Origin: Anaerobacillus sp. CMMVII
Lineage (GTDB): Bacteria > Bacillota > Bacilli > Bacillales > Anaerobacillaceae
Reading direction: 5' to 3'
DNA length: 64,000 bases
Assembly (NCBI RefSeq): GCF_025377685.1
Contig: NZ_JACEHK010000015.1
Coordinates: 310,001-374,000, forward strand
Part shown: piece by piece, positions 31,781 to 59,251 of the stretch
Numbering within the stretch: the first letter of the stretch is position 1
Layout: every line of letters begins with the position of its first letter
Notes under the pieces: generated by a model
The model's input: the letters and a program-made list of their open reading frames with translations, nothing else
What the model was told of the DNA's origin: nothing
Database searches by the model: none
Program-made: the position numbers and the translations under genes

Positions 31781-31863
31781 TTTTCGTAAACTTTGTTGCT
31801 TTTAGGTCGGAACCAAGCATTCGCTTGGTTCCGACCTAAAAGCTAATAGCAACAATCTTTTAG
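31781..31863. repeat. Cloverleaf-type repeat, collapsed single-hairpin copy, inverted orientation
   Basis: 31798-31818 and 31823-31843 are exact reverse complements (21 bp, starting GCTTTTAGGTCGGAACCAAG) around ATTC. The 7-base bulge (TAATAGC) is on the right and the tail GTTTTCGTAAAC on the left, i.e. reversed relative to the copies at 23241 and 58421. Confidence 0.85.
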
Positions 31864-32166
31864 TAAAAGAGCGTTATTTTTGTAACGGGTTCCGTTACCT
31901 ATCGCAAACATTAAAAATGTAATGCAAAATGACCTTCAAATTGTATGGTAATTTGGAGGTCTATTTTTGTTGATGAAAAGGGATATCGATATTTACTTCG
32001 GGAGAATTTGTAGTGCATTTTGTATATTAAAATGTTGGGGTACAATAGCCTGTGTACCGCAGCAAAATACACTACATTTTTACTTGCAAATTGAGATATA
32101 CAGATAAATATTGTTGTTTTTATTAAGGTGAGGCTCTGTTATAACTGATGTTACAGAAAAATAAAC

Positions 32167-32341
32167 GGTAAAATTCCGGCTAAACTGGGAAATACCCGTA
32201 TTTCCTTAAAAATAAGGGTAGTTTTTCCGTTTATATTATCCAAATCTTTAGATTTTTTCTTATTTAGAGCAGGTAATCGGAATATCTCCGCCTATTTCCG
32301 CTTCTTAAGCGTCTCCTATATAAATTAGCAGGAAATTCTCC
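32167..32341. repeat. Four-palindrome array, locus 2 (inside element A)
   Basis: Cores GGTAAAATTCC, GGTAGTTTTTCC, GGAATATCTCC and GGAAATTCTCC start at 32167, 32217, 32279 and 32331 (steps 50, 62, 52). Confidence 0.75.
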
Positions 32342-32455
32342 GCCTATTCATTCTCATACCTAACAAAAATCGATACGGAGAAGGCGGAAATGGTTTGCAA
32401 ACATCTTAATGAGCAAAAATCATAATTTGTAATCCGAAGAAATAGCAATTAAAGC

Positions 32456-32492
32456 AAATAGCAAGGGTATAAACCCTTGCTATTTCTAATTT
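32456..32492 (+). terminator. Terminator-like hairpin inside element A
   Basis: AAATAGCAAGGGT and ACCCTTGCTATTT (13 bp, loop ATAA) followed by CTAA and seven T. No plus-strand gene precedes it. Confidence 0.6.
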
Positions 32493-32620
32493 TTTTAGTC
32501 TCTCTAGCCCTACAAGTCGCCCTATATTTTATAGTACAAAAATGGTTACATTTTTGTTTGCATTTTCCTGTGCAAATTGACGTTTTGCGATAGGAAACAG
32601 AACCGGTTTTTATTTTTGAT

Positions 32621-45984: not shown

Positions 45985-46292
45985 CAACGATTAACTTAAT
46001 AAGTTTACAACCTTTGATGGAGCATAGTAGTTAAGGATTTGCTTGGTAAGAGAGGAAATGTCGTGGCTGAAAACATTTCTCCAAGTGCTTAATGAATGAA
46101 CACTCCTTAGGTTTTTCCTTGAAAGAAGCTAAGTCTACTTTGGTAGAACTATTCTTTTAGTAGGGGAAAACGTCTACAGGCGTTAACTGTCTAAAGTGGG
46201 ACTTACATGTTACATACAGTCCAATTAGGGTGGCACCACGGGATCCAAGCTCTCGTCCCTGATATTAATATCAGGGGTGGGGGTTTTTTTGT
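45985..46292 (+). promoter_or_regulatory. T-box leader of hisS-aspS (His specifier)
   Basis: Contains the invariant T-box core AGGGTGGCACCACGG (46227-46241) followed by a terminator hairpin whose arms meet at CCCTGATATTAATATCAGGG and end in a T run (46257-46290). Stem I elements GATGGAGCATAGTAG and GAGAGGAAATG are upstream. The specifier region reads TGAACACTCC, with CAC (His) at 46101-46103. Uncharged tRNA-His should stabilise the antiterminator and switch on hisS-aspS. Confidence 0.93.
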
Positions 46293-49630: not shown

Positions 49631-49660
49631 AACGGTAAAATACACAACAAATAAATATCA

Positions 49661-49867
49661 CTTATCAAGAGAGGCGGAGGGACTGACCCGATGAAGCCCG
49701 GCAACCTGTTTAGGTATCCATTGGATAACCGATAGAGTAAATTGTACGCTTCTATGCGCAGACAATTCGCTTTAACAAACAAGGTGCTAATTTCAGCAGA
49801 GCTACTAGCTAGCTCTGGAAGATAAGTTAAGGCACAAAAACCTTTCCTTATCTGGAAAGGTTTTTTT
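49661..49867 (+). promoter_or_regulatory. SAM-I riboswitch (S-box) upstream of hom
   Basis: CTTATCAAGAGAGGCGGAGG, GACTGACCCGATGAAGCC and CGGCAACC are the conserved S-box core; AAGGTGCTAA and the closing GATAAG complete P1. A terminator AAAACCTTTCC/GGAAAGGTTTTTT follows (49836-49867). SAM binding should terminate transcription before hom. Confidence 0.96.
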
Positions 49868-51267: not shown

Positions 51268-51450
51268 ACAAATGAGTCCTGAAGTGTTCGTAGGATACTA
51301 TACGTTTTGAGCCAACATTTTTAATATGGGAGCTTGAAGTTTTAGCTTGGCATACAAGCCTTCACGAGAGGAAGTACAAAGAGTTAAACAAAGCACCCAC
51401 CTGCTGAGGCAGGTTCAAAACTATGTGTTATACGGCATATCGGGACTCTA
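51268..51450 (+). ncRNA. ssrS: 6S RNA (BsrA/SsrSA type)
   Basis: Starts GAGTCCTGAAGTGTTCG and ends CGGCATATCGGGACTC; the two ends pair to close the long 6S helix. The middle holds AGTTAAACAAAGCACCCACC and GAGGCAGGTTCAAA, strongly like the 3' half of B. subtilis 6S-1 RNA, which lies at the same place (between aspS and tcdA/yrvM). Binds sigma-A RNA polymerase and mimics an open promoter. Ends are approximate. Confidence 0.85.
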
Positions 51451-55604: not shown

Positions 55605-57035
55605 ATGGGGATAAAAACAGGTGATGATAAGTTCTTTACTCGTGTTGAAAAAGGAATAAATAATGACTTTATGCGGAAGGCGGTTGCAGGTGCTCAAGAG
55701 CGTATGCAAGGCCGTAGGTTAGATTCAATTAGTGCCTTAGGTGATTGGGAGGATTGGAGAAACCTTGCTGAAGAAATTCGTCAGCACACACTTGAAAACT
55801 TGGATTTTTATTTAGAACAGTTAACAGAAAATGTAACAAAAAATGGTGGGCATGTCTTTTTTGCTGAGACTGCTGAAGAAGCTAACGATTATATTAAAGG
55901 TGTAGTTTCTAGTAAAAATGCGAAGAAGATTATTAAATCAAAATCGATGGTTACTGAAGAAATCAGTATGAACCAAGCACTTGAGTCTATAGGTTGTGAA
56001 GTAATCGAAAGTGATTTAGGAGAATGGATTCTCCAATTAGACGATCATGATCCACCATCACATATTGTTGTACCGGCTCTTCATAAGAATAAAGAGCAAA
56101 TTCGTGAAACATTTGCTGAAAAAAGAGGCTACAAGAAAACAAGTGACCCAAAAGAAATGGCGCGTTTCGCCCGTGAAGAGCTCCGTAAGGATTTCTTAAC
56201 AGCTGAAGTTGGGATTACTGGTTGTAACTTTGCCGTAGCAGAATCAGGATCAATTTCGCTTGTGACAAACGAGGGGAATGCAAGGATGGCGACAACGATT
56301 CCTAAAACGCAAATTACAGTTATGGGGATGGAAAGAATTGTTCCGACATGGGAAGAATTAGACATTCTTATTAGTATGCTTGCTAGAAGCGCTGTTGGCC
56401 AAAAACTAACGAGTTACGTTACTGGCTTAACTGGTACAAAAGAAGAAGGCGACGTAGACGGACCTGATGAATTTCATTTAGTCATTGTTGATAACGGCAG
56501 ATCAAAAATTCTAGGAACACAATTCCAAAGTGCCCTTCAATGTATCCGTTGTGCGGCCTGTATTAATGTTTGCCCTGTGTATCGTCATATTGGTGGACAT
56601 TCTTATGGTTCTATTTATCCAGGTCCGATTGGAGCAGTCTTAAATCCATTATTAGGGGATTATGATGAGTGGAAGGAATTACCTTACGCATCAAGCTTAT
56701 GTGGAGCTTGTACTGAAGTGTGTCCTGTAAAAATTCCATTGCATAACCTTTTAATAGAGCATCGTCGTGTAATGGTAGAACAAGAAGGGAAAGCGCCTTT
56801 TGCTGAAAAGTTAGCAATGAAAGGCTATGCGTTCGCTGCTTCTTCACCAGCTGTTTATAGTGTTGGAACAAAATCTGCACCTTCTGTCATGGGTCCATTC
56901 ACGAAAAATGGCTTTATTACTGATGGTCCAGGACCAGTAAAACTATGGACTGATATCCGCGACCTTCCTGAACTAAGCAAAGGAAAAGATAAGTTCAGAA
57001 CATGGTTTGAAAACCGTGACAAGGGAGGAAATTAA
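55605..57035 (+). CDS. lutB: Lactate utilization protein B (4Fe-4S subunit)
   Basis: 476 residues. N-terminal LUD domain ([20 protein letters not shown]) and two ferredoxin-like 4Fe-4S motifs, [14 protein letters not shown] and [14 protein letters not shown]. Central electron-transfer subunit of LutABC. Starts 13 bp after lutA and ends just before lutC. Confidence 0.95.
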
Positions 57036-57036
57036 G

Positions 57037-57756
57037 ATGACAGTTGGAACAGTTTATAATAAAGAAAAGTTTTTAAACAAAATCGCAAGTTCATTAGGAA
57101 GAGATCGAAAAACTACTGGTGTTGTCAGACCTGAGTGGAAGCATCGTCCACAATATGAAGTGTTCAAAGGCATGTCTCAAGACGAGCTTGCAGCTCAATT
57201 AGAGGACCAATGTCAAAGAATTCATACAGTAGCAAAACGTGCAACGACACAAACATTACCAAACGTATTAAAAGAAGCCATTGCTGAACTTGGTGGGAAA
57301 TCAATTGTAAACTGGAAAGATCCTCGTTTTAACGACTATAACTTAACTGAGGTATTTGAGGAATTTGCTAGTGTTGAAGGAAATGAACTTCATGTTTGGG
57401 ACCCTTCAATAGGTGAAGAAAATATTACGATTGCCGAACGTGCAAATATCGGAATTACGTTCTCAGATATCACATTAGCAGAGTCAGGATCTGTAGTTTT
57501 ATTTAGTGACAAAGGAAAAGGTAGATCTGTTAGTCTACTTCCTGCAACATATATTGCTATTATTCCGAAAAGCACAATCGTTCCACGTATGTCGCAAGCT
57601 GCTACTAAGATTCATAAAATGGCAGAAGCTGGGCGTTTACCTTCTTGTATTAACTTTATCTCAGGACCAAGCAATAGTGCTGATATCGAGTTAAACTTAG
57701 TTGTAGGTGTTCATGGCCCAATCCAAGCGACTTATATTATTGTCGAGGATAAATAA
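57037..57756 (+). CDS. lutC: Lactate utilization protein C (LUD domain)
   Basis: 239 residues, LUD domain (NIGITFSDITLAESGSVVLF, GKGRSVSLLPATYIAI, ISGPSNSADIELNLVVGVHG). Third subunit of LutABC. ATG 57037 follows AAGGGAGGAAATTAAG, overlapping the lutB stop region. Downstream, the likely terminator is interrupted by element B. Confidence 0.94.
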   Translation: MTVGTVYNKEKFLNKIASSLGRDRKTTGVVRPEWKHRPQYEVFKGMSQDELAAQLEDQCQRIHTVAKRATTQTLPNVLKEAIAELGGKSIVNWKDPRFNDYNLTEVFEEFASVEGNELHVWDPSIGEENITIAERANIGITFSDITLAESGSVVLFSDKGKGRSVSLLPATYIAIIPKSTIVPRMSQAATKIHKMAEAGRLPSCINFISGPSNSADIELNLVVGVHGPIQATYIIVEDK

Positions 57757-57861
57757 ATAGTAAAAGCATCCAAATGGATAACGGGTTCAGTTTCCTGTCG
57801 CAAAAACCGAAAACAATCGAAAATGTAGCCCAATTTGTAGGGTCTTTTGTATCTCTTTTAG

Positions 57862-57908
57862 CAACCCAAAAGAGGCTCAGTTCACTATTCTGAGCCTTTT
57901 TTGGTTGC
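57862..57908 (+). terminator. Hairpin terminator inside element B
   Basis: CAACCCAAAAGAGGCTCAG pairs with CTGAGCCTTTTTTGGTTG with one or two bulges. It may replace the split lutC terminator. Confidence 0.75.
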
Positions 57909-57996
57909 CTGTTGAATGCCCCCAATCCTTTGCTCCTTCCCCAACCATAAAAGAACGGAACCAGATGTGGGAATCAGCAGGGGTTCATAAATAAGC

Positions 57997-58170
57997 GGAG
58001 AAATTTCCTTTATTAAAAAAATAGCATTAAAAATAGCTTAAATAGACGGAATAATTCCGACTATTTACTCGAAAAACGTGAAAATGGGTGATTTTGCTTT
58101 GCTTAACCGGAAAATCTCCGCTTATTTCCCCTGAACCGAACTCTATCTGCAATTTAACCGGAAAACCTCC
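57997..58170. repeat. Four-palindrome array, locus 3 (inside element B)
   Basis: Cores GGAGAAATTTCC, GGAATAATTCC, GGAAAATCTCC and GGAAAACCTCC start at 57997, 58048, 58109 and 58160 (steps 51, 61, 51). Confidence 0.78.
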
Positions 58171-58420
58171 GGTTATTTTTAATTTTTTGTAAGATAAATG
58201 TATATCAATTTGAGGCTAAAATTGTGGGGTAAAACAGCCATTATACCCCTACATTCTGGGGTGCATTTCACTATACAATTTTTTATGTTATCCCTACCCA
58301 AATGGCTTTACACCAATAAAAATTGAGTGTAAAACTGCACTCATTTGGACTTGCATTTTAATGTTGTGATAGGAAACGGAACTCATTACCATTTGGATGC
58401 TTTTTTTGCCTCTTTTCTAT

Positions 58421-58590
58421 AGATTGTTGCTAATCTTTTAGGTCGTAACCAAGCGAATGCTTGGTTCTTCACGCTTTGCCTGAAGCTTTTGAGAATAAAT
58501 AAGCCATTGGGACAAATTAATTTGTCCCAAAAAAGCTTATTTATTTTCAAAAGACGACCTAAAAGCAACAAATGTTTACGAAAAAAGCCT
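58421..58590. repeat. Cloverleaf-type repeat, full-length copy with three inner arms
   Basis: Outer stem TTTTAGGTCGT/ACGACCTAAAA; arm 1 AACCAAGC/GCTTGGTT; arm 2 TTCACGC/GCCTGAA (one mismatch); arm 3 CTTTTGAGAATAAATAAGC (58486-58504) with GCTTATTTATTTTCAAAAG (58535-58553), capped by the palindrome TTGGGACAAATT/AATTTGTCCCAA. Tail GTTTACGAAAAAAGCC. It ends 7 bp from the rsfA stop. Confidence 0.8.
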
Positions 58591-58597
58591 TAAAAAA

Positions 58598-59251
58598 TTA
58601 TTTTGCAATTTTTTCAAGATTTCCATTCTTGTCCATTCGGAACTTCGGTGCTTGTACCTGCTCTTCTTCATCTTGTAACAATGCCATTCTACGAGCACGG
58701 TTCATAATTTGAATTAATGATTGATAGTCTTCTTCAACGACTCGGTGATCGTTTTCGAGTTTAGAAAGCTTAGTTTCTAATTCTTTCTTCTCAGTCATTA
58801 ATTGCAAGTTTTCTTTCATTAATTTCTCGTTTTCTCTTCTTAACTCTAATGAACTACCTTCTTTTGAAGCCAATGATTGAATAAAGTTAAGTACGTCCTT
58901 TAGACTAATACTTTGTTGTGGCTGTTGGTAGTTGCCTATATTCACCTCAGAAGCTGTCATTGTTGGCATCATAGCAGTTTCCATTTGAGTATGAATAGTA
59001 GTAGTAGGTTTATAAGATAATCTGCGCTTCATTTCTTTTCTCTGTTTTTTTGCTAGTTTTATTGCCTCATTATATTGATTTCTAACTACTGCATTCCAAC
59101 GGAAGCCACATGCTGCTGAAGTTCGATTTAATTCATCGCCAACTTCATCAAATGCTTTTAACTGCGTGCCTCCCTCTCTTATATGGCGCAATACAGTTTC
59201 AGCAAGTAGTAAATCATCCTCAGACGACCAAGCATCTTGTCTAATTTTCAT
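58598..59251 (-). CDS. rsfA: Prespore-specific transcriptional regulator RsfA family
   Basis: 217 residues. N-terminal Myb/SANT-like domain (RQDAWSSEDDLLLAETVLRH ... RTSAACGFRWNAVVRNQY), then a Gln/Thr linker and a coiled coil (LELRRENEKLMKENLQLMTE). This architecture is that of RsfA/YlbO, a forespore regulator under sigma-F/sigma-G control in B. subtilis. ATG start after AAGGAGATG on the minus strand. A monocistronic unit, divergent from the methyltransferase gene. Confidence 0.88.
   Translation of the reverse strand: MKIRQDAWSSEDDLLLAETVLRHIREGGTQLKAFDEVGDELNRTSAACGFRWNAVVRNQYNEAIKLAKKQRKEMKRRLSYKPTTTIHTQMETAMMPTMTASEVNIGNYQQPQQSISLKDVLNFIQSLASKEGSSLELRRENEKLMKENLQLMTEKKELETKLSKLENDHRVVEEDYQSLIQIMNRARRMALLQDEEEQVQAPKFRMDKNGNLEKIAK

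Follow-up and report, generated by a model that had tools for sequence, protein, structure and literature searches.

The window, i.e. the whole 64,000-nucleotide stretch of DNA analysed here (G000:C15:310001-374000, within a 4.87-Mb genome), carries at 57007..57756 (+) an open reading frame of 249 amino acids, which we take to be lutC and which has orthologues in all seven genomes of the genus. Downstream of this gene lie the two separated halves of a host terminator, namely the left stem arm (AAAAGCATCC, 57762..57771, +) and, by comparison of the arms, the right stem arm with its T-tract (58395..58407, +). The stretches 57762-57777 (AAAAGCATCCAAATGG) and 58389-58404 (CCATTTGGATGCTTTT) are complementary at 16/16 positions with 611 bp between them, exactly as the original prediction had described the arms flanking the insertion that it called element B. 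Further to the right a convergent gene of 217 amino acids, presumably RsfA-like, occupies 58598..59251 (-).

Element B itself extends from 57779 to 58388 (+; 610 bp, with termini reading TAACGGG...CATTA) and is a non-autonomous transposon (MITE) of a Tn7491-like family, which we followed within the Bacillota. Its imperfect inverted ends (TAACGGGTTCAGTTTCCTGTCGCAAAA / TAATGAGTTCCGTTTCCTATCACAA), located by end comparison at 57779..57806 (+) and 58361..58388 (-), agree at 21 of 28 positions, and over the outermost ~27 bp (TAACGGGTTCAGTTTCC / TAATGAGTTCCGTTTCC) both start with TAA and contain GTTC.GTT. Comparison of the flanks reveals a 9-bp target duplication, CCAAATGGA at 57770..57778 (+) and CCATTTGGA at 58389..58397 (+), the two copies being identical at only 7 of 9 positions. 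Both changes fall within the old loop and render the arms perfectly complementary. Template switching on a quasi-palindromic sequence would account for the perfection of the arms, both here and at locus L149. The flanks at the L149 junctions are perfectly inverted copies, not direct duplications, with three differences, as though the change found in element B had gone further there.

The placement of element B in the loop of the lutC terminator is supported by the empty site in related genomes, where the original prediction had proposed to look for the uninterrupted structure. The informative genomes were G004, G001, G006, G002 and G003, the G005 row and locus L173 being left out. In G004, whose lutC orthologue is 90% identical at the protein level, an unbroken AAAAGCATCGGAAACATTCCGGTGCTTTT lies 3' of the gene and is followed by the same convergent gene, and the G001 locus retains AAAGCATCGGATTTTCCGATGCTTT; uninterrupted counterparts of the left arm are found at L172 and L174, and the same convergent neighbour adjoins the empty site in L172. 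Because these two genomes keep the terminator whole, the AGCATCC arms must be host DNA. In G006 the hairpin is unbroken and of different sequence, and no such hairpin was found downstream of lutC in G003. In G002 (L176) the terminator starts with AAAAGCATCGG and then gives way to unrelated sequence, as if interrupted by something other than this element.

Six further full copies of element B are present in the same genome (L002-L007), besides partial ones; they are 74-93% identical to it in the search and 87-95% over the aligned bases of a global alignment. Their flanks show no relation either among themselves or to those of element B, which again places the AGCATCC arms outside the element. 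That these arms might be a part of element B is suggested by their perfect complementarity and their position directly at its borders; given six copies in unrelated surroundings, and since G004 and G001 have the same arms within an unbroken lutC terminator, we attach practically no weight to this reading. The window also holds a second family element of another subtype (31883..32609; 727 bp, 75% identical to element B over aligned bases), bordered by the duplication TTATTTTTG at 31874..31882 (+) and 32610-32618 (9/9 identical). The duplications are likewise 9/9 in L002, L005, L006 and L007 and contain one difference in L003 and L004. The copies in this genome have diverged from one another by several per cent and appear to be old, and no family transposase was found in the G000 assembly. 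Another inverted repeat (TTTTAGGTCG.AACCAAGC...) adjoins both family elements of the window (31797-31865 and 58425-58575) and looks, by eye, like a separate repeat family.

Element B was expected to bring along its own terminator hairpin at 57862-57908, and such a hairpin indeed lies near 57861-57908 (+); it faces inwards from the lut side, has T6 after it and is centred 106 nt from the left end. A second terminator-like hairpin is located at approximately 58320..58350 (-), centred 55 nt inside the right end and followed by a T run when read from the right. Judged by eye, the first of these hairpins is directed towards the lut operon and the second towards the convergent neighbour. The whole of this region, folded as a single strand, gave -212.6 kcal/mol (z -16.7 against 20 shuffles, i.e. 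far better than these). The core of the element (~57960-58180) recurs alone elsewhere in G000 (L010-L013, 73-84% identity) and may thus contain an older, nested repeat in which the motifs AAATAAGCGGAG..CTCCGCTTATT occur.

The open reading frame list contained no frame longer than 62 aa overlapping element B, and no Rfam match at the gathering threshold lies inside it; elsewhere in the window Rfam identifies a T-box leader, a SAM riboswitch and a 6S RNA (46005-46263, 49659-49828 and 51273-51450). The ~650-aa transposase of the family is thus not encoded by element B, which was for this reason filed as a non-autonomous derivative: it is short and non-coding and shares its inverted repeats and duplications with an autonomous partner. 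This partner is an element of G006 with very similar ends, whose transposase gene (L080 4653-6608, L119) has an internal TAG stop. The 6205-bp relative with a transposase in G006 occupies a near-perfect terminator site with a 9/9 duplication and codes besides for a protein split into 375 + 267 aa, of which G005 has an intact 648-aa homologue.

Ends of this type (consensus over ~27 bp, TAAC..GTTC.GTT....AAAA) occur in 6 of the 7 genomes of the genus, and controls with the reversed pattern yielded zero. They border elements from 540 bp to 9.3 kb in length with varied passengers. We mapped 40 elements, 23 with and 17 without the family transposase gene; the terminal inverted repeats match at 23.75 of 28 positions on average, and exact direct duplications of 9 or 10 bp are present at 29 of the 40 sites, a good direct duplication being absent in L060, L144 and L149. 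The autonomous members combine the ~650-aa transposase with a small ORF, passenger genes, TAA-starting ends and 9- or 10-bp duplications. Thirty-one transposase loci were examined for ends and 23 were counted; L153 was dropped as a duplicate of L096, and L094 (contig end), L126, L127, L140, L146, L151 and L152, which were not closable at both ends, were left out. For 19 of the 23 the ends came from a search blind to hairpins that demanded an inverted repeat of at least 12/20 and a direct repeat of at least 7/9; it gave 18 distinct loci at 9/9 and one at 8/9, an exactness that the demand itself partly selects. Four autonomous elements were closed by eye, two with 10-bp duplications and two without a good direct one. 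Single ends (L017, L018, L019, L028, L030, L047, L065, L067, L068, L071, L074, L076 and L079) and partial copies (L008-L014) were not counted. Inspection by eye showed that L060 355-1701 (G001:C50) consists largely of head-to-tail units of ~52 nt (..CAGCGGCTTTATGAAGGACACT..) without a target duplication, and that the single end L028 (G000:C17:45181-48207) lies near a gene with long collagen-like repeats, of a type that occurs in spore-surface proteins.

Full-length copies of the transposase, 22 in number, were aligned over 661 columns; none of them matched Pfam with an E below 0.006, and a search of PDB sequences with the transposase profile returned nothing up to E 5. The NCBIfam IS1 model matches all 22 weakly (best E 3.7e-8); with the L094 protein it covers residues 170-273, a zinc-ribbon/HTH stretch, at 17.5 bits against a cut-off of 100, and membership in the IS1 family was rejected on this score. 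Insertion sequences of the IS1 family also make 9-bp duplications, so the two groups share these and the distantly similar zinc-ribbon/HTH stretch; the family transposase, however, has about three times the length of the IS1 model (199 positions), scores below its cut-off and travels with passenger genes. In the AlphaFold2 model (pLDDT 75.6) the predicted C-terminal core aligns with the HIV integrase core (Z 10.4), Hermes (Z 10.3) and ISCth4 (Z 10.1; 237 residues, rmsd 4.6), which may be compared with the best Z values of 7-8 that are common by chance with this aligner. The 50 structural alignment rows listed are all integrases or transposases, and Foldseek gave no match for the model at E <=0.001. 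The prediction thus points to an RNase H-like catalytic core, as in DDE transposases. D277, D424 and E578 are invariant among the 22 proteins, and on this invariance we propose them as the putative catalytic acids, E578 lying in a low-confidence stretch of the model. The small ORF abuts or overlaps the transposase start at all 24 loci inspected. Its protein, modelled from 14 of the 24 sequences (pLDDT 86.8), gave in Foldseek mostly ribbon-helix-helix repressors near the top, all at E >1, and may weakly resemble this fold.

The sites of insertion were compared by joining the flanks of each of the 40 elements into an empty site that was then folded, and a hairpin was counted when it reached -10 kcal/mol or lower with its dyad no more than 2 nt from the centre of the duplication. 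By this measure 35 of the 40 empty sites bear a hairpin, as against 527 of 12,745 host control windows; these windows overlap (step 7) and the p value of 2e-43 is indicative only. A mechanism of insertion that prefers hairpins, as had been proposed for element B, would thus appear to hold for the family. The sites lacking such a hairpin are L005, L006, L034, L060 and L081, which include that of the window's second copy. Among the copies in the genome of element B, where hairpin sites had been proposed as a check, the expectation held for element B itself and for four of its six sisters (L002, L003, L004 and L007) and failed for L005, L006 and the 727-bp copy, at whose site the hairpin is weak (-4.9 kcal/mol).

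For the flanks we used a set of 52 sites, made up of the 40 elements, 11 Tn7491 sites and one element of a Pontibacillus plasmid. Complementarity of at least 9/10 between the flanks was found at 29 of the 52, compared with 0.64% for mismatched flank pairs in which base composition was kept. The A fraction reaches 0.62-0.85 at positions -17 to -12 (strands pooled, so that mirror symmetry arises by construction). With a threshold of at least 4 A of 6 and at least 4 T of 6 at +/-12-17, the A-rich and T-rich tracts are both present at 39 of the 52 sites, as against 0.94% of host positions. A simple ORF caller placed 20 of 50 sites between convergent, 30 between tandem and none between divergent genes, 2 of the 52 being left without a call. 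In tandem contexts the elements that could be oriented point one way in 10 cases and the other way in 12, without overall bias; this sum is made up of 8 and 4 for the other autonomous elements and 2 and 8 for Tn7491.

The dfrG transposon Tn7491 belongs to the same family as element B. Its transposase is 55.8% identical to that of L094, its length is 3276 bp, and its ends, 9-bp duplication and two-gene module are those of the family; unlike element B it has its own transposase and dfrG, a widespread trimethoprim-resistance gene. According to PMC10763498, Tn7491 (also printed Tn4791) was first identified inside Tn6198 of Listeria monocytogenes, has TAAGTAGTTCAGTTTTGGAGTACAAAA at both ends and a 9-bp duplication, and shows evidence of movement within the genome, a second copy lying between the convergent genes csbB and saeS. 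Of the matching records (114 from plasmids, 3 from phages) we read 15 Tn7491 loci, the plasmids read being those of Staphylococcus, Enterococcus, Listeria and Lactococcus; this gave 11 distinct sites after L179, L182, L188 and L189 were dropped for a repeated site or a common flank; L179 has neither a good direct duplication nor a hairpin. A centred hairpin is present at 6 of the 11 sites (L167, L181, L183, L185, L187 and, weaker, L186), and at the other five plasmid or phage sites (L168, L169, L180, L184 and L190) it is weak or missing; at L190 the two strands give -4.0 and -11.8. The preference of Tn7491 for terminators is therefore real but incomplete, and because of these five sites, along with the five of the 40 mapped elements mentioned above, the preference of the family as a whole is not absolute.

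We consider it highly probable that element B is a small non-autonomous derivative within a DDE transposon family whose preferred target is the dyad of intrinsic terminators. The sequence itself shows the ends with their duplications, the centred position within terminators, the hairpins near both ends and the family of possible partners in trans. The transposase itself would recognise the palindrome at the level of DNA, perhaps in the form of an extruded cruciform, along with the A and T tracts on either side of it. The family might instead be guided by transcription, with the transposase or a partner protein being drawn to RNA polymerase halted at the terminator or to the nascent RNA hairpin. 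The sites do resemble working terminators with T tracts, and 0 of the 50 resolved ones lie between divergent genes; this explanation is weakened by the lack of an overall bias of orientation in tandem contexts, and the duplication is centred on the DNA dyad rather than on the point of release at the U-tract, and we consider it unlikely, though deserving of attention. Recognition of nothing but an A-tract and a T-tract some 28 bp apart, both of which terminators have, would account for the frequency of the two tracts at the insertion sites and for some Tn7491 sites which, by eye, retain them without a good hairpin. Among 3,216 host positions with both tracts, however, only 4.3% reach a complementarity of 8/10, as against 29 of the 39 tract-positive insertion sites, which leaves this rule improbable.

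Insertion may also be random, with selection retaining only the harmless events in terminators. Terminator regions are safe sites, and the divergence of the copies in G000 suggests that they are old; but neutral DNA beside a terminator would be equally good for the element, and even with the loosest cut-off of -6 kcal/mol the dyad lies no more than 2 nt from the duplication centre at 37 of 40 sites, compared with 1,552 of 12,745 control windows. We regard such an origin of the pattern as very improbable; the folding, the flank complementarity and the tract controls leave both the tract-only and the random reading insufficient. The original prediction had looked for the cause in a mechanism of the IS605/IS200 type or one related to group II introns. 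Both use hairpins, and group IIC introns, according to PMC7923331, take terminator stem-loops as their target. The family has inverted repeats and 9-bp direct duplications and enters at the dyad, not beside the stem, and its partner protein has a predicted DDE core, so that this link has next to no chance of being correct. Inverted repeats, duplications of 9-10 bp and the predicted RNase H-like core are features of DDE elements and not of HUH transposases or retro-introns. Elements of the IS200/IS605 group have an HUH transposase and are not known to have inverted ends or to make a duplication, and membership in this group was rejected on the inverted ends, the duplications and the predicted fold of the partner. 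Group IIC introns are not known to make 9-bp duplications with inverted ends; a ribozyme and a reverse-transcriptase ORF would mark such an intron, and element B has no Rfam match at the gathering threshold and no ORF >62 aa.

If element B does belong to a terminator-preferring DDE family, its insertion may be pictured as follows. A transposase supplied in trans would bind the ~27-bp ends of element B, cut the lutC terminator with a 9-bp stagger centred on its loop and join the element there, leaving the terminator split and bordered by the 9-bp duplication; the small RHH-like protein may take part in this process. The loss could be made good by the element itself, as the ends of the family mostly hold a terminator-like hairpin ~50-140 bp inside. 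A scan accepting either strand found a hairpin of this kind within 200 bp at 70 of the 80 ends. Among the autonomous elements, 23 in number, the hairpin centre lies 63-64 nt in at the transposase-side end (18/23) and 105-124 nt in at the other (16/23), and hairpins occur at a density of 5.3 and 4.1 per kb in the first and second 100-bp bins from the end, of 1.6 per kb in the bin that follows and of 0.2-0.8 per kb between 300 and 2000 bp. These internal hairpins probably terminate transcription; with one hairpin of element B facing each neighbour gene, termination would be restored on both sides and the insertion would come close to being neutral.

Transposons that target palindromes are already known, IS1272 and the REP-targeting insertion sequences among them. 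According to PMC5678879, IS1272 (IS1182 family) targets inverted repeats whatever their sequence and replaces the stem-loop without a duplication, while the family of element B keeps the stem-loop, in split form, with a 9-bp duplication; the folding of the sites and the duplications ruled out membership in the IS1272/IS1182 group. The REP-targeting elements IS1397, ISKpn1, IS621 and ISRm22 insert in an extragenic palindrome, and ISRm22 does so at the axis, leaving 6-bp direct repeats (PMC1525189); they recognise one repeat family by its sequence, in contrast to the many unrelated terminators entered here, and the families named in that paper (IS3, IS110 and others) differ from that of our transposase. 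The group IIC introns, which target terminator stem-loops (PMC7923331), are RNA-based retro-elements inserting beside the stem-loop, whereas the present family enters at the dyad. The word "terminator" is absent from the accessible text of PMC10763498, PMC8638950, PMC6496109 and PMC4432960, and among the literature matches listed no title or beginning of an abstract announced a DDE transposon with a preference for terminators. From the literature searched, three features appear to be new, namely the class of target, an insertion point that is centred on the dyad and marked by a 9-bp duplication, and the presence of terminator-like hairpins within the element.

These observations provide a simple rule for where one transposon family mostly lands, and they suggest a strategy of near-harmless transposition in which the element enters just past the end of a gene and brings a new terminator with it. 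We lean, with some caution, towards a broader view, namely that this is a widespread and so far unrecognised DDE family for which the shape of a terminator of any sequence would serve as the landing signal, while terminators at set distances inside the ends would repair the damage, so that a structure-guided and nearly harmless transposition would move passengers, dfrG included. Should the transposase read the shape of DNA and not its sequence, this would be a case of structure-guided DDE transposition, with a possible use as a tool for insertion into safe sites of Gram-positive bacteria. Relatives of the transposase, counting fragments, are present in 72 of the 397 genomes sampled from the order, in 21 of 398 from the class and in 10 of 398 from the phylum. 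Matches were also obtained in 114 of 72,556 plasmid records, 97 of them spanning most of the query, and in 3 of 50,697 records of phages. The passengers include a sigma factor and an ABC transporter ATPase in elements of G006, and a methyltransferase and a nested IS110 transposase in those of G004. By eye, the elements L096 (9324-9695) and L081 (8052-8426), from two genera, carry similar small lipoprotein-like passengers.
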